IMG/VR virus record: IMGVR_UViG_3300043436_004687
Span: 1 to 64,000 of that record
Length of the DNA stretch: 64,000 bases
Direction: 5' to 3' (one strand)
From: a virus
Of the stretch, positions 5,603-22,121 are shown one piece after another. The notes under the pieces were generated by a model. That model saw only the letters and a program-made list of their open reading frames with translations. It did no database searches and was not told the origin of the DNA. Made by a program: the position numbers and the translations under genes. Numbering within the stretch: the stretch's first letter is position 1; each line of letters begins with the position of its first letter.

Positions 5603-6721
5603 TTATTCTATTATATGAGGTAAAAACCTACTTGTATTATTTGTTATATATTCTGAACTTTCTCTAAAACCAATTCCAACTGATTCTTGACCAATTACCC
5701 AACTACCTATCAATACCTTATTACCATCAAATTCAGGCAACTTAAATAACTCTTGATATATAAAACCCTCTTCACCATATTCACCATCAGTAGACTCTAC
5801 CAACATATCATTTTCAAACAACTCAACATTAGCACCCTCTCTAGATAAAAAAGGTTTCTTAACATAATTTCTTAAATTACGTTTTTCAAAATAACATTCT
5901 AATAAGCTTTCGTGATTTGGAAACAATTCCCATAAAATTGGTAATATCGCTTTATTGCTTAATATCATTTTCCAAGAGGGTTCAATCCAAAGTGTATCTG
6001 TTTTGATTATATTTTTACCAAACTCTTCATTAACAATCCATTCCCAAGGATATAATTTAAATATATTTTTAATTGGGTTTTCATCTATATCGGTGAATTC
6101 ATTTCCATTCCAACCTATTTCATCGATATATATTAATTTGGTTTCAATTCCACCTTGAATAGCACAATCTCTCATATATTCAACTGTGGTTAAATCTTCT
6201 AATGATTCTCTAACACAAGTAAAATATAAAACACCATCATTAAGATATTCTTTTAAAACACCCCAATATTCAACAAGACGTTCATGCACAGAACTAAATT
6301 GATCTTTATTAGGGAATAAATCATTCATCCAATTCCATTGAACAACACCACATTCAAACAACGAAGTTGGTGTATCTGCATTGAATTCCAATAATTTTAA
6401 TTTACCATCCTTCATTACAAAATCAAATCTACCATAAATTGATGGTACATCGTTTTCCCAACTATCAATTATATGTTGATGCATATAATCTGGAATTCCA
6501 AAGCTACTTAATAAATTATTATCAATAACATGTTGAACGGCTTCTAAAGACATTGACCATAATTCATTGGTTGCTTTATATATTTGCTCACTTTCCTCTT
6601 TGGAAATTGAATAATAAGCACTCTCATCCCAATATGGTGTATCTGTAGAATGGAAACCAAAACCAATTTCTTCTAGTTTTGATTCCCAATCTTTTCTTTT
6701 ATTTATCTTTATTCTTTTCAT
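5603..6721 (-). CDS. Glutathionylspermidine-synthase-like ATP-grasp protein (YgiC type)
   Basis: 372 residues. It matches the GSP_synth/YgiC group: YGRFDFVMKDGKLKLLEFNADTP (ATP-grasp substrate block, about 95-117), WIEPSWKMILSNKA (about 246-259), and FLSREGANVELF (about 291-302) near the C-terminus. These enzymes form amide bonds with ATP; the bacterial YgiC branch has no settled substrate. It ends exactly where thyA begins, and its start follows directly on a YgiB-like lipoprotein gene (6722-7075), reproducing the ygiB-ygiC neighbourhood of bacteria. A role at the envelope is inference. Confidence 0.8.
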   Translation of the reverse strand: MKRIKINKRKDWESKLEEIGFGFHSTDTPYWDESAYYSISKEESEQIYKATNELWSMSLEAVQHVIDNNLLSSFGIPDYMHQHIIDSWENDVPSIYGRFDFVMKDGKLKLLEFNADTPTSLFECGVVQWNWMNDLFPNKDQFSSVHERLVEYWGVLKEYLNDGVLYFTCVRESLEDLTTVEYMRDCAIQGGIETKLIYIDEIGWNGNEFTDIDENPIKNIFKLYPWEWIVNEEFGKNIIKTDTLWIEPSWKMILSNKAILPILWELFPNHESLLECYFEKRNLRNYVKKPFLSREGANVELFENDMLVESTDGEYGEEGFIYQELFKLPEFDGNKVLIGSWVIGQESVGIGFRESSEYITNNTSRFLPHIIE

Positions 6722-7856: not shown

Positions 7857-8099
7857 TTATTCGTTATACCCTCTTCCATTCCAACCTTGACCATTAGCAA
7901 TTACTCTAGCTGATGGATCAACATAAATTCCACCATATTCACATAATTCACCATTTACTGTAATGGTTGCCGCCCCAGATATGATTACGTTATGTGCAGT
8001 TAAATAAGTATAAATTGCCATTGCAACTTCAGAACCAGTTAAATCTATTTGAACCCCTGGACCATATTCTGTTTTTCCCTTTCCAAATGATATTTCCAT
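7857..8099 (-). CDS. Conserved phage protein (80 aa), Gly-rich
   Basis: Contains FGKGKTEYGPGVQIDLTG followed by an alternating hydrophobic beta pattern (ITVNGELCEYGGIYVDPSARV) and a Gly-rich tail. I recall similar short proteins from many large phages, without assigned function. It sits in a minus-strand run with gaps under 12 nt. Confidence 0.7.
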   Translation of the reverse strand: MEISFGKGKTEYGPGVQIDLTGSEVAMAIYTYLTAHNVIISGAATITVNGELCEYGGIYVDPSARVIANGQGWNGRGYNE

Positions 8100-11002: not shown

Positions 11003-11803
11003 TTAAGAAATTAGATCTATATAATTATTAACTGTATTTTCACTCAACCCCAATAAATCAAACCAATTTAAAAAATATTGTTCTAAAATATCACTTTTAG
11101 CATGTATTCCTTTATGATGAACCATAAAATCTTTATAATTTTGTATTTTATCAGCTATAAGCATCAATTTAATGTCAATGTTAGTAAATCCAACAAAATT
11201 ATTAATGTCCATATAAGATAAATAACTATTAGCTACTCTACGATATTCACAAGCTAAGATAATTGATTCACTTGAAATATTATTATAATCTAAGGATTTA
11301 TTTTTATTGAATTCATCATCTGATTGCAATAATGGATGTAAATAATAAGCATCTTTAACATTATTAGAAGCTTTCAAATGATTTAAAATAGTACCACCCT
11401 CATCAATGTGGTAAATAAATGGGACTTTACTTCTCTGACTTTTTAAATCGCCATAATAATTTTGTATCAATTTATAGGCTTGACTATGTTTTAATTCTAA
11501 ATGATTACATTTTATTTTTTTCAAATAAGAAGTTATCCCACATTCTTCTAAAGTTAAAATTGCAATTTGATATTGTTGAACTCTTTTAATGAAAACTTGA
11601 TTACCTCTATATTGTTTTAAAACATAAACCGAACCATAATGTGGATAAGTTGGGTAATTGTATAAAGTTACGATAGAATCACCACAATCTATTTCTTTGA
11701 TAACAGAAACCCCAAATTTTTTTAATTGCTTATATCTATATTTTAAATATTTTTTAGCATCCTCAATAGTTTCAGCGTCATAATTGATTTCAAATTCAGT
11801 CAT
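11003..11803 (-). CDS. Conserved phage protein, possibly HD-like
   Basis: 266 residues. An N-terminal half with mixed strands is followed by YHIDEGGTILNHL, AYYLHPLLQSDDEF and SIILACEYRRVANSYLS (about 150-220). These patterns recall phage proteins related to HD/MazG-type nucleotide hydrolases, although a canonical HD pair is not evident. Placed 1 nt after the upstream gene's stop. The function call is tentative. Confidence 0.65.
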   Translation of the reverse strand: MTEFEINYDAETIEDAKKYLKYRYKQLKKFGVSVIKEIDCGDSIVTLYNYPTYPHYGSVYVLKQYRGNQVFIKRVQQYQIAILTLEECGITSYLKKIKCNHLELKHSQAYKLIQNYYGDLKSQRSKVPFIYHIDEGGTILNHLKASNNVKDAYYLHPLLQSDDEFNKNKSLDYNNISSESIILACEYRRVANSYLSYMDINNFVGFTNIDIKLMLIADKIQNYKDFMVHHKGIHAKSDILEQYFLNWFDLLGLSENTVNNYIDLIS

Positions 11804-12945: not shown

Positions 12946-12953
12946 CAAAGATA
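12946..12953 (-). promoter_or_regulatory. -7 promoter box
   Basis: TATCTTTG on the minus strand, 40 nt before the ATG at 12906. It likely starts the operon 12906 to 7448, just outside the TnpB element. Confidence 0.55.
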
Positions 12954-13004
12954 AGACAATTAATTTAAATAACCAAATTTTATTTATCTTTTATTAAATT
13001 TAGC

Positions 13005-13034
13005 TATATTTATAATGAAGTAGTCTATTAGACT
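13005..13034 (+). promoter_or_regulatory. TATATTTATA box and start-proximal hairpin of tnpB
   Basis: TATATTTATA (13005-13014) followed by a 5-bp hairpin AGTCT-ATT-AGACT (13022-13034), 7 nt before the tnpB ATG. The same box precedes most other mobile genes in this window. Confidence 0.5.
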
Positions 13035-13041
13035 TAAATAT

Positions 13042-14250
13042 ATGCAATTAGTTGAATCACATATAATCAAACAAAATAACCCATTTTATTCTGAATGTAA
13101 TTCACTATGTTTTAACTCTAAAAACCTATATAATAGTTGTTTATATAAAGTAAGGCAAGCATATATAAATGATAATGTAAACATATTATATGATTTACAC
13201 CATCTTATGAAAGATACTGAACAATATAAAGCATTACCAGCTAAAGTGTCTTCTACTGTTCTACTAATGGTACAGAAAAATTTTAAATCATACTTTAAAG
13301 CAAATAGTGACTATTATAAAACACCATCTAAATATAAAGGCAAACCCAAATTACCTAAATATTTAAACACAACTAATGGTAAATTTTTTGTTTCTTATAC
13401 CAATCAAGCAATATCTAAAAAAGTATTCAAGAAAACAAATAAAATTAAATTATCTGGAAATAATATAGAATTTAAAACAAAAATAACCGATTTTAATCAA
13501 ATTAATTGTATTAGAATTATACCCAAATTAGGGTATAATGTAATTGAAGTTGTTTATACAATATCAGATGTGACTAAATTAGAAAATAATGATAAGTATT
13601 GTAGTATTGATTTAGGTGTTAATAATTTAGCTACCATAGGTAGTAATACTATTACACCATTTATAATAAATGGTAAACCTTTAAAAAGTATAAATCAATA
13701 CTATAATAAAAAATATGCTTATTATAAAAGCATATTAGAAAAGAGAAATAATAAAAAAACAAGTAACTATTTACATAAATTAAATTTAAAAAGAAAAAAT
13801 AAAATAGATAATTATTTACATAAAGGAAGCAAAGAAATTGTTAATATATGTAAAATAAATAATATTAATACACTTGTAATAGGTAAAAATGATGGATGGA
13901 AACAAGATATTAATATAGGAAAACAAAATAATCAAAATTTTGTTAATATACCTCATAGTAGATTTATAGATATGTTAAACTATAAATGCGAAAGAGAAGG
14001 TATAAATGTTATACTACAAGAGGAAAGTTATACTAGTAAATGTAGTTTTTTAGATGATGAGAGTATTAAAAAACATGATGTTTATAAGGGTAGCAGAATA
14101 AAAAGAGGATTATTTAAGAGTGCCAAAGGCACACTTATAAATGCTGATTTAAATGGTAGTTATAACATACTAAAAAAAGCAATCCCGAACGCTTTCGCTA
14201 ACGGGATAGAGGGTGTAGGAGTACATCCAAAGGTAATTACTTTAAAGTAA
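13042..14250 (+). CDS. tnpB: TnpB-family RNA-guided endonuclease (rearranged catalytic site type)
   Basis: 402 residues, on the opposite strand to its neighbours. RuvC-like motifs: SIDLGVNN with Asp190, QEESYTSKCSFLD (about 326-338) and NADLNGSYN with Asp370. The usual Glu of the VIE motif is replaced (VIGKNDGWK, about 279-287), so the acid probably comes from QEESYTSK, as in the TnpB branch with a rearranged active site. TnpB proteins cut DNA guided by a right-end RNA and keep IS200/IS605-type elements in place. No TnpA gene is nearby. The element lies between the operon promoter at 12946 and the gene at 14302. Confidence 0.85.
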   Translation: MQLVESHIIKQNNPFYSECNSLCFNSKNLYNSCLYKVRQAYINDNVNILYDLHHLMKDTEQYKALPAKVSSTVLLMVQKNFKSYFKANSDYYKTPSKYKGKPKLPKYLNTTNGKFFVSYTNQAISKKVFKKTNKIKLSGNNIEFKTKITDFNQINCIRIIPKLGYNVIEVVYTISDVTKLENNDKYCSIDLGVNNLATIGSNTITPFIINGKPLKSINQYYNKKYAYYKSILEKRNNKKTSNYLHKLNLKRKNKIDNYLHKGSKEIVNICKINNINTLVIGKNDGWKQDINIGKQNNQNFVNIPHSRFIDMLNYKCEREGINVILQEESYTSKCSFLDDESIKKHDVYKGSRIKRGLFKSAKGTLINADLNGSYNILKKAIPNAFANGIEGVGVHPKVITLK

Positions 14251-14275
14251 GGTATATATTTCTATATTTTATGTA
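14100..14275 (+). ncRNA. Candidate right-end guide RNA (omega/reRNA) of tnpB
   Basis: The 3' end of tnpB and the bases after it hold a GTGCC-AAA-GGCAC hairpin (about 14121-14133), a GC-rich CCCG...CGGG hairpin and GGTGTAGGAGTACATCC. This is unusual in such AT-rich DNA and typical of the scaffold that overlaps the tnpB end. Exact ends and guide were not determined. Confidence 0.45.
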
Positions 14276-14301
14276 ACTCTAAATCCCATTTTATTTTATT
14301 C

Positions 14302-14769
14302 TTATAAAGAAATCACACCGTTTTCAATCCTATACCCATAAGATTTGGTTGCATCATCAAAGAGTTTTTCTGAGTCTAAATTATTATCATGCATGAACAT
14401 TTCTTCTTCGTTATCTGTGATAAATTTTGTTTGAAATGTTAAAACTAATTCGTTCATAATTTCCCCCAAACTATTTTGCCCATATTTAGATAAACCATCA
14501 ACAACATTCTTTTTACCTTTATCAAACCTAATTAATCCTTTATTACCATCTTTCGATATATAAGTTTTCCCATTTTCTTCTATTATTTCAAAACCTTCTT
14601 TTTTTAAATTGTTAAGTTCTTCTTGGGTTTTAACATAAGATTTAATTAGGATTGATGAGTTATTTTTAACCATCCAGTATTCCCCATCTTTTTCTTCAAT
14701 TTGTATTGATGTTTTATTTTCAACATCTTCAATTGTAAACTCTTTTTGAAATGTAATTTCTAATGACAT
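14302..14769 (-). CDS. Hypothetical acidic protein next to CRISPR array
   Basis: 155 residues, acidic, beta-rich in the first half (EITFQKEFTIEDVENKTSIQ). The C-terminal half is helical with NEEEMFMHDNNLDSE. It has its own promoter box (14798-14805), so it need not be part of the CRISPR transcript. No known Cas or anti-CRISPR family was recognised. Confidence 0.65.
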   Translation of the reverse strand: MSLEITFQKEFTIEDVENKTSIQIEEKDGEYWMVKNNSSILIKSYVKTQEELNNLKKEGFEIIEENGKTYISKDGNKGLIRFDKGKKNVVDGLSKYGQNSLGEIMNELVLTFQTKFITDNEEEMFMHDNNLDSEKLFDDATKSYGYRIENGVISL

Positions 14770-14797
14770 ATTATTTATTGTTATTTAATTTATATTG

Positions 14798-14805
14798 CAA
14801 ATATA
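14798..14805 (-). promoter_or_regulatory. -7 promoter box
   Basis: TATATTTG on the minus strand, 29 nt before the ATG at 14769 and 38 nt beyond the outermost CRISPR repeat. Confidence 0.6.
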
Positions 14806-14842
14806 ACAATAAATTCTATTAAAACCCATTTATTTTAAATAA

Positions 14843-15601
14843 ATTATTATTCCTTTACGGATTAAAATAAATACTACAATAGAATTTTATCAACGTGTTG
14901 ATACTGTATTGTGATTCCCTTACGGATTAATATAAATACTAACTATAGTTTTTGGACAATCAGCAACTGATGCATTGTGATTCCATTTCAGATTAGGATA
15001 AATACTACAGTCAAAGTTTATTATGGGTCAAATAAAACATTGTGATTCCATTACGGATTAAGATAAATACCAATTGTATTAGCGAACGTTTCTCAAATGG
15101 AACGGTTGTGATTCCCTCACGGATTAGGATAAATACCAATTTATATGCTTCATATTGTTCCAACCTATCGGTTGTGATTCCCTCACGGATTAGGATAAAT
15201 ACCAATTCAAAAATGGTCCCAAAGAAAGATTGGTAGGTTGTGATTCCCTCACGGATTAGGATAAATACCAATAACTGAAACTGAATCAATGCTTTGTACT
15301 TAGTTGTGATTCCCTCACGGATTAGGATAAATACCAATATTAATATTTATGATATTACTTATTGGTTTGTTGTGATTCCCTCACGGATTAGGATAAATAC
15401 CAATGTATTCCCAACTATATTTAAAGAGATTAGGTTGTGATTCCCTCACGGATTAGGATAAATACCAATTATAATAATTTCAGATATGCAAGTTAATGTG
15501 TTGTGATTCCCTCACGGATTAGGATAAATACCAATTTATGAAGCTTTATAACAAGCTGTATGATAGTTGTGATTCCCTCACGGATTAGGATAAATACCAA
15601 T
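14843..15601 (-). CRISPR. CRISPR array, 12 repeats and 11 spacers
   Basis: Eight identical 36-nt repeats begin at 15105, 15171, 15237, 15303, 15369, 15434, 15500 and 15566. Four degenerate copies begin at 14843, 14908, 14974 and 15039. On the plus strand the repeat starts GTTGTGATTCCCTCACGG and ends AGGATAAATACCAAT. On the cas strand it starts ATTGGTATTTATCC and ends GGGAATCACAAC. Spacers are 29-30 nt. Decay at the low-coordinate end marks it as the trailer, so the leader faces cas6. The array is on the same strand as the cas genes and 113 nt after cas6. Confidence 0.98.
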
Positions 15602-15714
15602 TGCTCTTTGTAAACTCCAATAATCATTGGAGAAAATTACCAATTTTACTAATGGGAAATGAGTATTTTTAAATCTATTTAATATAATTAGCCTCATTTT
15701 TTTAATCCTAGTGT
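15602..15714 (-). promoter_or_regulatory. AT-rich CRISPR leader
   Basis: 113 nt of AT-rich DNA between the cas6 stop and the first perfect repeat, on the leader side as judged from repeat decay. It contains runs of T and no ORF. No clear TAnnTTTG box was found, so the array may be read through from the cas operon. Confidence 0.55.
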
Positions 15715-16410
15715 TTAACGATAAATTGATTTATTTTCACTTTTATATATTGTACCAAAACCAGAACCTGTTGATTGACCAATTCCTATATTATATAATA
15801 ACTCAGCAATTTTCTTATTGGTATAAATATTAATATGACATGAATTGGCGATATTAAGAACATTTTTAACCATAACCTTGCTAGTTTTATGGTTAACATG
15901 CTTAGGTATTTTAACATCAAAATTACTCAAATCTAAAGATGGGTTAATCTTACTTATCTTATTAATCAAATAATTCTTCAATGTAATTTGAAATTCTATG
16001 TCCTTCAAAGTATGAAAACTATAGTCTTTTTTAGATGAATATTTTTTAATGATAAATGGGGATAAAGTAACAAAATGGTTCCACCCATTATAAAATTTCT
16101 CATCAACAAACTCAATACCAATAACCTTTATATCACCATAAAAAGGTGTCGAATATAATCTAATTAAAATCTTATTGATGAATTTTTCATCTAAGCTTGA
16201 TATTGTTATATAACCTCCATTTTTAAATGATATGTTTTTAGTACCTTTTATCCAAGTACCACCTTGTAAAGATGAAATAGAATAATCATTCTTAGCGTCA
16301 TGGAATTCATTATCACTACCTAACACTCTATGTATAAATGAATTAACCAAATCTTGATGATTTATTCTTAATTCATCATTTGTTCCAGATAACAATATTT
16401 TTAGTCTCAT
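15715..16410 (-). CDS. cas6: Cas6 crRNA endonuclease
   Basis: 231 residues. Cas6 cuts the repeat RNA to release crRNAs. The C-terminal glycine-rich RNA-binding loop GIGQSTGSGFGTIYK (about 209-223) is diagnostic of Cas6. A two-ferredoxin-fold layout fits the length, and a His in LVNSFIHRVLG (about 28) is a candidate catalytic residue. It is the last gene of the cas operon and lies next to the array leader. Confidence 0.88.
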   Translation of the reverse strand: MRLKILLSGTNDELRINHQDLVNSFIHRVLGSDNEFHDAKNDYSISSLQGGTWIKGTKNISFKNGGYITISSLDEKFINKILIRLYSTPFYGDIKVIGIEFVDEKFYNGWNHFVTLSPFIIKKYSSKKDYSFHTLKDIEFQITLKNYLINKISKINPSLDLSNFDVKIPKHVNHKTSKVMVKNVLNIANSCHINIYTNKKIAELLYNIGIGQSTGSGFGTIYKSENKSIYR

Positions 16411-16429
16411 TTTTATATTTTTTTAATTA

Positions 16430-17302
16430 TTAATATTTTTCTTCGGAAATTTCTGACATGAGAACAAAATTTTCAGTGTCATTTAATTCGTCTTCATAAA
16501 AGATGCCTTCAATTTTAACATAACCACCATCTAAAATATTGGTTGAGTTTTTCGATAATTTATCGACAAACCATTGTTCATAAGGTACTAAAATTTCACC
16601 ATTAAAAATATTGATGTAATCAACACCAGAAATAATTGTTTCACCTAGTAAACCATTTTTTGTTATTTCTGACCTATCTGGAGCTTCTTTGGTTAGAAAA
16701 TTAACTATTGGTGTTTTATTTTTTTCTAATAAATATTTAACAACACCATCTAACTTTGTACCTTCAATTCTATAAATATTTAACAATAATTCAAAAGGTT
16801 TTTCGGTTACATCATAACCTAATGATCCATTAATGATTTGAATAAATTCATCGTAATATTCACCCATGTATCTTTTAATCTTAAACCATTGAATGCTTGG
16901 AGCTTTGGTCCATGAATCCGATGCTGATTTATTTACCTTTGTAAATTCATCAATATACGATTCAAAAATCTCATTTTTTCTAGTTTTATTAACTTTAGGT
17001 GAATTAATTTTTAAATATGATTTATTTGCTAAATTAAAAATTAACTCATTTTTATCATAAAAAGTTTTTCTAAAGCTTGGGGCTGGTCTTTCACCAATAA
17101 GTGTATGTAACATATTGGATATTTGATGTACTGTGATTGGTTCTTTAAATGAGGTTATTTCATTTAAAGATCTACTAGACCTATTGAAATATAAATTACC
17201 TTTAGAATTAACACCAATGACAGTAACAAAATCCTTAGTTTTAACATTTTTGGGGAAAAGCTTAGCATTTTTAAAACTAAGCTTTATATATTTATTACTC
17301 AT
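16430..17302 (-). CDS. Cas5-like subunit of a compact type I effector
   Basis: 290 residues between cas7 and cas6, where a Cas5 or large subunit is expected. It starts with a beta strand (NKYIKLSFKNAKLFPKN). The middle (about 75-200) is largely helical (FESYIDEFTKVNKS, YYDEFIQIINGS, PFELLLNIYRIEGTKLDGVVKYLLEK) and the end returns to strands. A Cas5 fold with a helical insertion that stands in for the missing Cas8 is known in the I-F2/Fv subtype, and I infer the same here. No nuclease motif was seen. The family match is by position and architecture, not by a clear signature. Confidence 0.6.
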   Translation of the reverse strand: MSNKYIKLSFKNAKLFPKNVKTKDFVTVIGVNSKGNLYFNRSSRSLNEITSFKEPITVHQISNMLHTLIGERPAPSFRKTFYDKNELIFNLANKSYLKINSPKVNKTRKNEIFESYIDEFTKVNKSASDSWTKAPSIQWFKIKRYMGEYYDEFIQIINGSLGYDVTEKPFELLLNIYRIEGTKLDGVVKYLLEKNKTPIVNFLTKEAPDRSEITKNGLLGETIISGVDYINIFNGEILVPYEQWFVDKLSKNSTNILDGGYVKIEGIFYEDELNDTENFVLMSEISEEKY

Positions 17303-17349
17303 AATTATTAATTCTAAATGGTTTCATCTGTTGTTTCTTCACCATATTT

Positions 17350-18390
17350 TTAGCTGGTTTTTTTTAGTTTTTTTGCATCAGCAGTTTTTTTTGTTTCTTC
17401 TTTAAGAGCTTTTTCGATAATCGCTCTTTGTTCTTTAGCATTAGATTCATCAGCCAAAACATAACTTTCTTCAACATCAAAATTTAAATTATCGATATCT
17501 TCATTAGAATTAATATCAACCCAAATATTCTTTTTTGAATCCAATGGGTCCATAACTAATTCAACTGTTAACGACTTAATTTTAGCATATGCTGTTGCTC
17601 TATCAATACGAATTTGTAACATTCGTTTAAGTGTTTCTTTAATAAGAAATACAATTTGTTCATTGGTAAGTTTTAACCCATATTCAGCAACATCAATCAC
17701 TGAAGTTTTTAATGTATAATAACCCAACTCACCATCAAAATTTGGTAGGGTATGTATCAAAAACGTTTTTAATATTTCATAATCATCGGAATTAAATGAA
17801 TATCTATCAAAAATTGGATCACCACTTAAAAATTCTAATGATTGGAGATTAATAAAACCTTCAGCGATGTATGTAATATCACCAATAGTTTCCTTATTGA
17901 ATATGGTGGTATCTGATTTATCAGAATCATCACCAACTTTTTTCCCACCACTTCTAGAATAAAATTCCATATATGATTCACTATTATTTGTTTGAATAGC
18001 TGATGTAATTGTCAATGGACTTTTTCGTTTAAGTGTTTCTTTTTTTCCAGCAAACATGTATCCTCTAACAAGACCCATTGTACTTCCAATAAATGAATTT
18101 AAAAGAGATTTGTGGTGAGTTATTGATGGATTAGTAGCAATCGCATCTCCTTTAAAAATAGCATTTCTAAGAGCATCAGATGATATTTTAATTTTATAAC
18201 CCAAAACCCCATCTTCTCTTCTAAAATAATACTTCTTAGCATACATATTATTGTTATCACCAGAAGTAAATTTATTTTTATTCCCTTCTTTACTTTCTCT
18301 ATTCCAAAGATATTTTTGATCACCTGAATCATAATTTACAATTCCATTACCTTCTAATTCAATTTTAAAATTTACATGTTTTACTTTCAT
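17350..18390 (-). CDS. cas7: Cas7 backbone protein
   Basis: 346 residues. Cas7 polymerises along the crRNA spacer. Segments KISSDALRNAIF, GLVRGYMFAGKKETLKRKSPLTITSAIQ and KETIGDITYIAEGFINLQSL fit Cas7-family proteins, and from memory they most resemble Cas7fv of the compact I-F2 subtype. The C-terminus is a Lys/Ala/Glu-rich helical tail. It is the first gene behind the promoter at 18419-18426, with cas5-like and cas6 following on the same strand. Confidence 0.8.
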   Translation of the reverse strand: MKVKHVNFKIELEGNGIVNYDSGDQKYLWNRESKEGNKNKFTSGDNNNMYAKKYYFRREDGVLGYKIKISSDALRNAIFKGDAIATNPSITHHKSLLNSFIGSTMGLVRGYMFAGKKETLKRKSPLTITSAIQTNNSESYMEFYSRSGGKKVGDDSDKSDTTIFNKETIGDITYIAEGFINLQSLEFLSGDPIFDRYSFNSDDYEILKTFLIHTLPNFDGELGYYTLKTSVIDVAEYGLKLTNEQIVFLIKETLKRMLQIRIDRATAYAKIKSLTVELVMDPLDSKKNIWVDINSNEDIDNLNFDVEESYVLADESNAKEQRAIIEKALKEETKKTADAKKLKKTS

Positions 18391-18418
18391 TTTTTATTTA
18401 TTAAGTTATTTATTGGTG

Positions 18419-18455
18419 CAAATATATGTTTTAATTCTTTTAATATACAAAGATA
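18419..18455 (-). promoter_or_regulatory. Promoter of the cas7-cas5-cas6-array unit
   Basis: TATATTTG (18419-18426) lies 29 nt before the cas7 ATG. TATCTTTG (18448-18455) lies about 21 nt further up, touching the cas3 stop; its TTTG can serve as the -33 element or as a second start. The interference complex and array can therefore be transcribed independently of cas3. Confidence 0.6.
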
Positions 18456-18457
18456 AT

Positions 18458-20698
18458 TTAATTATTTTTTACAACACCTAATTCATCATCATAATATCTA
18501 TCATAAACAATATATGGGGTATTCGATTTTTTAGCCATTTTTCTAATGGTATCAATAGTTTTATACTTCTTATCATCAATAATGTCATTATATTCAAAAA
18601 GTTGATTATTTGAATTTCTAATTTTTTCCATAGTTTTAAACATTCTATTTAATGTTTTTGAGTTCTCATTAAATTCTACATCAAAACCATTTAATATTTG
18701 TTTATTAAATGGACCAACCCAATCTTTACCATTTTTATGTTGAACAATATAAAATATTTCATTATTAATACTTCTTAATTTATTTGAACCAGCTGTTAAG
18801 ACATTTTTATTTCTCTTGTTATTAAATTTTATTGGGTAAATATTTGATAATCTAATTTTACTTATATCAAAACTAGTAGTAACAAATTGTTTAATTGCTT
18901 TATCATTTAATTTATTGAAATTGTTATAAATAACATAGATTTCATTTAATGTTAATTTTTTATTATTATAGGGTAATAAAAATTCAAACCAACTATCAGA
19001 TAAATTTCTTGTGTATAATAAATTTTTTATCGTTGACTGTGAACTAATATATTTTTTATTGATATCACCATTAGGTATTTCTTTTATTATTGTAATTTCC
19101 GAGTCTCCAATACTATTACCAAATCTATCACATCTACCTATTCTTTGTAGTGTTGACTGTGGGGAGAGTACATCTTCAAATAAATTTTTAAAACTTATAT
19201 CTAACGAAGCTTGTAAAATATGAGTACCAATTATATTAGGTTTAATTTCAGAAATTAATGACTTTTTCCCATACATTTCAACTAATTGATTAAAATCCTC
19301 ATCTTTTTTTTCTTTGATAAACTCATTATGTAATAATAAATCATATTTACCTTTTAATTTTTCTTCTTGTGCTGAAGAAATTGTGTTTTTAACTACTAAT
19401 GAATTACTATTAAATTTTATGTTTGGTCTTTTATTAAGTAGTTTAATTAAATATTTTTTATCATGAATTGCATTATAATGTGATTCATGATTTGGTAATA
19501 TAGTTGTTTGATTATTTAAAGAATCCCACAAAAATTCACAACTAATTTGAGTTGCCGATAATAACAATGTTTTACTTTTTGTTAATCTATGCCTTACTCT
19601 CATTATATTAACAAATAGTGACATAAAAGCAGCTTCACTTATTAATTCATGATATTCATCAAAAACTACATTACAACCAAAAATTAAACTGGACGAATCC
19701 ATAATTTCATTTTTAAATGATGGTGCTAAAAAATTATCAATATTTGTTATAATAATATCAGAATCAAATATCTTTCTTGAATCAGCATTTGTTTTCTCAA
19801 TATCACCACCAAGAATTAATTGAACCGAAGGAGAAATAGATAAACTTTCTATTTCTTCTAATACTGAATTAAAAACTGATTCTGCTACTGCATTTCTAGG
19901 GGTTACCCAAACCAATTTTTTATTATTTTTTAAACCCCATAATAAACCCATTATAGTTTTACCAAAACCAGCGGGTGCTTTTATTATTGTAGTTTTATCT
20001 GTCTGTTTTATTATATTTTTCTGTTCCTCATATCTAACTGTATTATCATATTTACAATTAGTAATTATATGTTTATTTTGCGTTGACATATATTGCTCAA
20101 TTAAAGTAGGAGAAACTTCTGTTAACTCATTTAAATTTGAAGAGATTCTATCAGCAGTAATCACTATTGATCTTAAAAAAATTAAATATTCTAATGATTT
20201 ATCATTCTTAGGATAAAATAATGGTGTTGTAACTGAATCAAAATATTCTATATTTTCATTTACATTTTCAACACCAACTATTTCAATTAAAAAATTTAAC
20301 ATATTATTTATTGAGATATCATCTAATAAATTTAAAATTTCAATATCAGTATGTTTTTCAATTTGGTTTGAAATTCCATGATGCCAATAAACAATATTTA
20401 AAATCATTGATTTATTTGGAAATTCATCTTTTAAATATTTAGATAAAAAAGCCCACCCTATTTCATTATGTCTAAATTTTAAATTTGGTTTTTTGTTACT
20501 GTTTAAAAGTTCTTGAAATTTAGTGGTTCCTTTACCTATGTCATGTAATAAAGATGAAAACTTTATTATTTCATTAAATCTATTAACAATATCACCATTA
20601 CTCATTTTATCAAATAATAATTGAGCCGTTTTAGATACTATTAATGAATGAGTCATTAAAATTAACCCATTACTTTTAGCTATTATTTTCATCACCAT
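18458..20698 (-). CDS. cas3: Cas3 HD nuclease-helicase
   Basis: 746 residues. It unwinds and degrades target DNA after Cascade binding. HD domain: MTHSLIVSKTA (His17), SSLLHDIGKG (His52-Asp53), then HN (about 77) and HH (about 106). Helicase: Walker A APAGFGKT (241-248), DEYH box (347-350), SAT (381-383) and QRIGRCDR (516-523). HD and helicase are in one chain, with no fused Cas2. An alternative ATG at 20692 overlaps the upstream TGA (TGATG), suggesting translational coupling to a membrane protein gene. Confidence 0.93.
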   Translation of the reverse strand: MVMKIIAKSNGLILMTHSLIVSKTAQLLFDKMSNGDIVNRFNEIIKFSSLLHDIGKGTTKFQELLNSNKKPNLKFRHNEIGWAFLSKYLKDEFPNKSMILNIVYWHHGISNQIEKHTDIEILNLLDDISINNMLNFLIEIVGVENVNENIEYFDSVTTPLFYPKNDKSLEYLIFLRSIVITADRISSNLNELTEVSPTLIEQYMSTQNKHIITNCKYDNTVRYEEQKNIIKQTDKTTIIKAPAGFGKTIMGLLWGLKNNKKLVWVTPRNAVAESVFNSVLEEIESLSISPSVQLILGGDIEKTNADSRKIFDSDIIITNIDNFLAPSFKNEIMDSSSLIFGCNVVFDEYHELISEAAFMSLFVNIMRVRHRLTKSKTLLLSATQISCEFLWDSLNNQTTILPNHESHYNAIHDKKYLIKLLNKRPNIKFNSNSLVVKNTISSAQEEKLKGKYDLLLHNEFIKEKKDEDFNQLVEMYGKKSLISEIKPNIIGTHILQASLDISFKNLFEDVLSPQSTLQRIGRCDRFGNSIGDSEITIIKEIPNGDINKKYISSQSTIKNLLYTRNLSDSWFEFLLPYNNKKLTLNEIYVIYNNFNKLNDKAIKQFVTTSFDISKIRLSNIYPIKFNNKRNKNVLTAGSNKLRSINNEIFYIVQHKNGKDWVGPFNKQILNGFDVEFNENSKTLNRMFKTMEKIRNSNNQLFEYNDIIDDKKYKTIDTIRKMAKKSNTPYIVYDRYYDDELGVVKNN

Positions 20699-21380: not shown

Positions 21381-21412
21381 AAAAAAAACTTAAATATTTC
21401 TATTTAAGTTTT
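21381..21412 (-). terminator. Intrinsic terminator
   Basis: A 12-bp stem AAAACTTAAATA/TATTTAAGTTTT with a 4-nt loop, followed on the minus strand by a T run. It ends the upstream operon (ART-like, sigma factor genes) before the cas3 operon promoter. Confidence 0.7.
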
Positions 21413-22121
21413 AAAATTTTTTATAATCTTTTATTAAATTAGGTGGGATGTTGTTTAAAACATATATCCCATTAATTGGTAGGTTAGGATCAACATAGAA
21501 TTTAAACTTATCTTTTATTTGAGAAATATCAATTGATAATAATATTGGATTTTCTATATCGAAATTAATATTATCTACTAAACCATTAGCATCATCAGTA
21601 TTTTTTAAAAGATATATTCTTTCTGGATGGTAACTAATTTTATTTTTATGTGTTGGTTTTAACCCTATTGATTTTATACCATTTAAATATTTCTCGTCAG
21701 TTACATGATAAAGTATATCAGGTAAATTTTCTGAACTTATTTCCTCACCAAATTTAGGTTCAAATATCAATTTACTTATCATATCATCTTCATCCCACCC
21801 ATTAGATTCAATAGTTTCTAAGTTAAAGGATAAATCATTTTTAAATTCATCCACATTACTATTGATTGGCTCATGAAAATCTTCTTGATAACCAGCTAAA
21901 TACCAACCAAATATAGTCTCCATTTTCTTTATCATTGGAATTACTATATCTTTATATTTAAGTTTTAACTCGAAATTTATTTTACCATCATTATAATAAA
22001 TATCATCTGGGGAAATATTCAAACTTTCCAATTTTTGAATTAATTTTTCACCATTAATACTTTGGGTTAAACCCTCTAAAATTATATTTAATTCTTCTCT
22101 GAGTTTATATTTGATGTTCAT
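21411..22121 (-). CDS. Protein with C-terminal ADP-ribosyltransferase-like fold
   Basis: 236 residues. The N-terminal 110 residues are acidic with helices. The C-terminal part reads LPDILYHVTDEKYLNGIKSIGLKP, then YHPERIYLL and later ILLSIDISQ, followed by a strand-rich end (INGIYVLNNIPPNLI). This H-x-T...GL.P...YL pattern is the one seen in Tpt1/KptA, PARP-like and DUF4433-like NAD+-using transferases. Activity and target are unknown. It is the last gene of the sigma-factor operon. Confidence 0.55.
   Translation of the reverse strand: MNIKYKLREELNIILEGLTQSINGEKLIQKLESLNISPDDIYYNDGKINFELKLKYKDIVIPMIKKMETIFGWYLAGYQEDFHEPINSNVDEFKNDLSFNLETIESNGWDEDDMISKLIFEPKFGEEISSENLPDILYHVTDEKYLNGIKSIGLKPTHKNKISYHPERIYLLKNTDDANGLVDNINFDIENPILLSIDISQIKDKFKFYVDPNLPINGIYVLNNIPPNLIKDYKKF

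Follow-up and report, generated by a model that had tools for sequence, protein, structure and literature searches.

A compact type I CRISPR-Cas cassette related to I-F2, with no recognised Cas8, in huge phages

Positions 1 to 64,000 of the IMG/VR virus record IMGVR_UViG_3300043436_004687, the stretch of DNA that we analysed and refer to as the window, carry a small set of genes and repeats that resembles a type I CRISPR-Cas (clustered regularly interspaced short palindromic repeats and associated proteins) system. The source record is 339,635 bp long, and because its first 127 bases are identical to its last 127 bases (a terminal repeat) we treated it as complete; the whole phage genome that holds the window is labelled G000. 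All on the minus strand of this phage genome, which is not a host contig, lie cas3 (18458-20698; 746 aa, a predicted HD nuclease and superfamily 2 helicase), cas7 (17350-18390; 346 aa, a Cas7fv-like backbone subunit), a gene in the cas5 position (16430-17302; 290 aa, assigned from gene position and predicted fold), cas6 (15715-16410; 231 aa, a general Cas6 endoribonuclease), a leader of 113 nt between cas6 and the first repeat (15602-15714) and a CRISPR array (14843-15601). The same cas3-cas7-cas5-cas6 set, at these coordinates, had been proposed in an earlier reading of the sequence by itself (the first-pass annotation), as had a Cas7, a Cas6 with a Gly-rich loop and an HD-helicase Cas3, and family matches to Cas7fv, to Cas6_C and to the HD, DEAD and C-terminal domains of Cas3 bear those identifications out.

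The Cas3 protein contains the Pfam domains HD, Cas3_HD, DEAD and Cas3-like_C_2, and its best PADLOC model is Cas3fv (1.2e-50). Six phage Cas3 proteins, combined into a profile and compared with PDB entries, had 9g44_A from an I-F2 complex as their top match (3e-69), with the next entry at 5e-10. Residues of the HD, Walker A, DExH, SAT and VI motifs are conserved in an alignment of ten phages, and this predicted HD nuclease-helicase places the system in type I. The HD domain starts at approximately residue 12, too near the N-terminus for a Cas2 domain such as I-F systems have fused to Cas3, and no Cas2 fusion is present. Cas7 matches Cas7fv in PADLOC (2e-23) and in NCBIfam (NF040577, 1e-26), although the NF040577 score of 93.8 bits lies under the curated equivalog cut-off of 200, which indicates a relative rather than a close member of Cas7fv. 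A Cas7 profile aligned over residues 4-278 with PDB 5o6u/5o7h/9g44 (3e-26), tblastn connected Cas7 to a plasmid cas7fv (1e-11), and the most diverged Cas7 relatives were also best matched by Cas7fv. Cas6 scored 69.7 bits against TIGR01877 (cas_cas6; cut-off 58.65) and above the cut-off for Pfam Cas_Cas6_C, has the Gly-rich loop GIGQSTGSGFG and a His37 that is invariant in an alignment of eight phages, and gave no match to Cas6f/Csy4. To judge from its sequence, the protein is an ordinary Cas6 and not Cas6f/Csy4.

The 290-aa protein encoded beside cas7 had no family match in Pfam, PADLOC, NCBIfam or PHROGs, its sequence relatives were found only within the phage loci described below, and the helical-domain profile PF20158 did not match it. 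An AlphaFold model built with 12 homologues (mean predicted local distance difference test score, pLDDT, 73) shows helices in the middle (residues ~139-215) flanked by strands towards either end, in agreement with the helical middle that had been noticed at first pass. When this model was compared with 350,542 PDB chains by Foldseek, the sole match below 0.001 was 5o6u_F, which is Cas5fv (E 5.6e-4, probability 0.97); its TM-scores are low (0.30/0.26), so that the match is one of topology and not of close superposition. An earlier model from five sequences had as its top match 9g44_B, a chain of the I-F2 complex, at a weak E of 0.013, and a library of viral structures yielded no significant match. 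In the complex of Shewanella putrefaciens, the 5' tag is bound by Cas5fv, whose six-helix domain recognises the protospacer-adjacent motif (PAM) and which occupies the position that a large subunit would otherwise have (PMC6546366). On the strength of the modelled fold, the 290-aa protein would play the same role at the CRISPR RNA (crRNA) 5' end and the PAM, in place of Cas8.

Single window proteins used as queries recovered few or no relatives, and alignment-based scans were needed. With these scans, the cassette was found in viral contigs L002-L017 and L033-L046 and in one contig, L029, of a metagenome-assembled genome (MAG), which, without duplicates and with the window counted, make 13 distinct loci: 11 complete loci with four genes and an array, and two fragments. 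The contigs of the relatives reach 330, 362 and 597 kb. The usual gene order is cas3-cas7-cas5-cas6-array, with cas3 beyond the array in L004, L029 and L036, the array before cas3 in L006 and cas6 first in L017. In the 11 complete loci the 290-aa protein is conserved beside cas7 and no fifth cas gene was recognised. The four genes have correlated pairwise identities (r 0.67-0.89), and the ratio of nonsynonymous to synonymous change (dN/dS) is ~0.11 for cas7 and ~0.2 for cas3 in comparison with L002, and 0.26 for partial cas5 in comparison with L003. Within 396 Bacteroidota genomes, the Cas7 of L029 was the only occurrence, and the 395 further genomes lacked the cassette; L029 is a 44-kb contig of a Bacteroidetes MAG with a viral look (Thg1, small hypothetical genes). 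Shine-Dalgarno motifs are not enriched in G000 and its start regions are A-rich, which is the Bacteroidota pattern, and the host of these huge phages is probably a member of the Bacteroidota. About a dozen tandem paralogous genes (80-101 aa) lie directly upstream of cas7 in L004 (5726-9593), and a DinG/XPD-like helicase (PF13307, DEAD_2) lies at L004 3886-5520, ~4.5 kb from the cas genes; the I-Fv locus of S. putrefaciens likewise has DinG nearby (PMC4605320).

The first-pass annotation had reported no large-subunit or adaptation genes in the flanking DNA, and the search for them was widened to the whole G000 record. Cas1 was not found in ten phage records, nor Cas2 or Cas8f/Csy1 in six, with the whole of G000 included each time. 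Among the 25 families listed for each of PADLOC and NCBIfam, none of the 99 large G000 proteins matched Cas8 or Cas10, which rules out only strong Cas8/Cas10 matches; a cas8 or cas10 gene elsewhere in the genome had been named as the finding that would speak against a minimal system, and neither Csy1 nor a strong match of this kind turned up. A divergent Cas8 in G000 is a formal possibility.

The array comprises 12 repeats of 36 nt and 11 spacers of 29-30 nt. Counting mismatches against the minus-strand repeat unit ATTGGTATTTATCCTAATCCGTGAGGGAATCACAAC gave exactly the eight perfect and four decayed repeats that had been described: repeats without mismatches occupy 15566-15601, 15500-15535, 15434-15469, 15369-15404, 15303-15338, 15237-15272, 15171-15206 and 15105-15140, followed on the minus strand by decayed repeats at 15039-15074 (4 mismatches), 14974-15009 (8), 14908-14943 (6) and 14843-14878 (10). 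The rest of the genome holds no copy of the repeat, and a backwards-read control pattern gave 0 matches. A host repeat matching those of the phages would end in GGGAATCACAAC. The repeats have a 3-bp stem, UCC/GGA, whose positions pair in 97% of cells across 11 sequences. One stem pair is changed on both sides (C-G/U-A, compensatory) in two sequences, but this covariation is weak, as it draws on 11 sequences only and was reached by 31 of 500 shuffles. Cleavage at the end of the stem would give an 8-nt tag, AUCACAAC, and 8 nt is the usual tag length. Across the relatives, leaders are ~80-115 nt long in most cases, repeats are 36 nt (51 in some units of L017) and spacers are ~30 nt (exactly 30 nt in 129 of the 159 counted). 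The 51-nt repeats, at L017 12122-12416, arise from duplication of the repeat end (TAAGGTAATCACAAC) and stand with ~30-nt spacers. In the 597-kb phage L016 the array (12950-14880) contains diverged repeats as a second set, and one of its segments seems to be duplicated. A TnpB-type RNA-guided nuclease gene (13042-14250) adjoins the array in the window, and at least eight of the 99 large G000 proteins match TnpB models. On the other side of the cassette, 21411-22121 has a weak Pfam match to Tpt1/KptA RNA 2'-phosphotransferase.

The arrays also bear on how spacers are gained. In every array the repeats next to the leader are intact, and repeat decay grows away from the leader in 11 of 11 arrays (10 at p<0.05), a gradient that is, on sequence grounds, the trace of growth at the leader end. 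Furthermore, two different samples yielded the contigs L008 and L012, which across 13,959 bp differ only in one single-nucleotide polymorphism (SNP) and the entire first spacer (11030-11059). The two first spacers sit exactly between intact repeats, although an artefact of metagenome assembly is still possible. Plasmid type IV-A systems are a precedent for spacer gain by host adaptation proteins (PMC11656645), and by analogy host Cas1-Cas2 acting in trans would be the simplest source of new spacers. When the repeat was searched for in the 395 further Bacteroidota genomes, it returned scattered single matches, little above control. The MAG that contains L029 was considered as a repeat source and rejected: it has a Cas1 contig of its own, but the repeat of its array is unrelated. 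The proposal made at first pass, that spacers enter through host adaptation proteins, is supported indirectly by leader-end turnover and array polarity together with the lack of Cas1 in ten records, but no matching host array was seen. That the cassette is a new I-F variant owned by phages, whose arrays gain spacers via host Cas1-Cas2 or an unrecognised phage-encoded integration route, is a tentative reading to which we give slightly less than even odds.

Of ~170 spacers, only three matched anything searched, and each matched its own genome. Spacer 7 of the window (15141-15170, minus strand) is identical at 30 of 30 positions to G000:275118-275147 (L057 11118-11147), inside an RNA-ligase gene (PF09414; G000:275027-276337), where the protospacer has TTTTAAGAAT as its 5' flank and ATTAAAATCT as its 3' flank. 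The other two matches, in L017, lie at 5934-5961 (27/30) and 7940-7969 (30/30), within ~3.4 kb upstream of the cas genes, and both have the 5' flank TATTA. The chance of an exact self-match is negligible (~1e-10). I-F2 is marked by a GG PAM; the 5' flanks of the three self-protospacers are AAT, TTA and TTA and may not be functional. The simplest account is that self-spacers were acquired from the replicating phage's own DNA and are tolerated where the PAM is wrong.

Taken together, we favour the interpretation that the cassette is a complete, Cas8-less type I effector system of huge phages, probably with Bacteroidota hosts, that is related to I-F2/I-Fv, and we put its probability at roughly 0.76. 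Several results weigh against this interpretation. The 290-aa protein could not be connected with Cas5fv by sequence: PDB profiles and hhalign gave no match, and in a shuffle test the real scores fell under those of the best shuffles. Its assignment as Cas5 draws on a moderate model (pLDDT 73, low TM-scores) together with genome position, and the profile and structure searches suggested at first pass linked Cas7 with Cas7fv, and the Cas5-position protein with Cas5fv, in the latter case by fold and not by sequence. Arrays with a matching repeat were not seen in the 396 Bacteroidota genomes except on the phage-like contig L029. Foreign protospacers were absent from reference phages for 38 chosen spacers and from the other phage records, and the first spacers of the window and of L012 matched only the array itself when viral contigs were searched. 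Moreover, a perfect self-match should kill where the system is active and accepts the PAM.

These spacer results bear most directly on an alternative in which the complex regulates or silences host or phage genes, the phage's own RNA ligase included, with the self-matching spacers as functional guides. The exact matches in G000 and L017, the proximity of the L017 sites to the cas genes and the lack of foreign targets would all fit such a role. Regulators normally lose their nuclease, however, whereas the HD and helicase motifs of Cas3 are kept in ten phages and purifying selection was evident where measured; in addition, only three of ~170 spacers match their own genome, and the one in G000 is an older spacer. 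We consider this explanation unlikely.

Somewhat less probable again is that the 290-aa protein is not Cas5fv-like but a diverged or reduced Cas8 or an unrelated subunit, with an ordinary Cas5 or Cas8 supplied by the host. The missing sequence-level match to Cas5fv leaves room for this view, but Foldseek singles out Cas5fv among all the PDB chains, the neighbouring genes encode an I-F2-like Cas7 and Cas3, and the 290-aa protein is always present with no further cas gene. The first-pass annotation had allowed that 16430-17302 might prove to be an ordinary Cas8 or an unrelated protein, and Cas5fv is instead its sole significant fold match in the PDB. That the locus is a decaying, inactive passenger captured from a host, in which distal repeats have degenerated (four of them in the window) and a self-matching spacer could be tolerated, is very improbable, given that divergent phages have kept open frames, catalytic motifs and a low dN/dS, that every array has intact leader-proximal repeats and that the first spacer differs between the otherwise near-identical L008 and L012.

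For the favoured system of a Cas8-less effector, we infer complex assembly, the role of the PAM, interference, the targets and the source of adaptation proteins from the sequences. Transcription of the array would accompany or follow that of the cas genes, and Cas6 would cleave each repeat where the short UCC/GGA stem ends, leaving the 8-nt tag. Copies of Cas7 would coat the 30-nt guide, and the Cas5fv-like protein would cap the 5' tag while its helical domain takes over from Cas8 in recognising the PAM and wedging the duplex, after which Cas3 would be recruited and the target DNA degraded. New spacers would enter at the leader end via Cas1-Cas2 supplied in trans. The infected cell would probably be protected for the owner phage against competing phages or other elements. 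Rival phages, plasmids and host genes had been proposed as targets in the first-pass annotation; since every spacer match found lies in the genome of the phage that carries the spacer, use against rivals is our inference and not something that the spacers show.

If this interpretation is correct, huge phages repeatedly carry a CRISPR system that targets DNA with four proteins and without Cas8 and that is present in no sampled Bacteroidota chromosome; the minimal I-F2 design then extends to a virus-owned branch with a different crRNA-processing enzyme. Two questions become testable, namely how a large subunit can be dispensed with when a Cas5-type subunit acts alone in its place, and by what route spacers enter phage arrays in genomes that have no adaptation genes; for the latter, the contigs L008 and L012, one first spacer and one SNP apart, offer a direct handle. 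Should phage arrays still be gaining spacers, the cassette would be an updatable weapon of huge phages against competitors.

Several phage- and plasmid-borne systems invite comparison. The type I variant of huge phages described by Al-Shayeb et al. (2020; PMC7162821) also combines type I effector genes and short arrays with a lack of Cas1/Cas2, but it has no Cas6, its Cas5 is nearest to Cas5d (I-C) and another helicase stands in place of Cas3. The phage ICP1 (Seed et al., 2013; PMC11656645) likewise carries a type I-F system, although with its own adaptation module and a layout that is not Cas8-less. Plasmid type IV-A systems (PMC11656645) are similar as element-borne class 1 systems that lack adaptation genes and rely on the host for spacer gain, whereas they use CasDinG, no Cas3 nuclease and other effector proteins. 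The 2025 classification (PMC12669027) mentions a variant between I-F1 and I-F2, to which the phage system may be identical, as well as I-F4 with Cas8-HNH; I-F4 is no fit because it has Cas8 and is typically without Cas3.

The closest likeness is to I-F2 (I-Fv) of S. putrefaciens CN-32 (PMC4605320, PMC6546366; PDB 5o6u, 5o7h, 9g44), as the first-pass annotation had suggested and as the Cas7 and Cas3 sequences and the predicted fold of the Cas5-position protein now support. Both lack Cas8/Cas11 and share the order cas3-cas7-cas5-cas6, the phage backbone is Cas7fv-like, the phage Cas3 is closest to the I-F2 Cas3, and the phage Cas5-position protein has a helical middle and Cas5fv as its best fold match. 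In contrast, the phages have a general Cas6 where I-F2 has Cas6f/Csy4, their Cas3 is without the Cas2 fusion, and their loci are without cas1, whereas plasmid I-Fv loci carry cas1f. The phage repeat of 36 nt and spacer of 30 nt compare with an I-F2 crRNA of 60 nt (PMC4605320), the helical region of the phage Cas5 is shorter and without a PF20158 match, and the phage system resides on Bacteroidota-type huge phages, whereas I-F2 is found on proteobacterial chromosomes and plasmids. The cassette would operate in the manner of I-F2, but because Cas6f, the Cas2-3 fusion and cas1 are lacking and Cas7 lies under the curated cut-off, we did not file it as I-F2. An earlier mention in the literature is possible, but we regard the cassette as a new I-F2-like variant borne by phages, a possibility that had been raised at first pass and that holds because its Cas6, its Cas3 architecture and its repeat and spacer lengths differ from those of I-F2.

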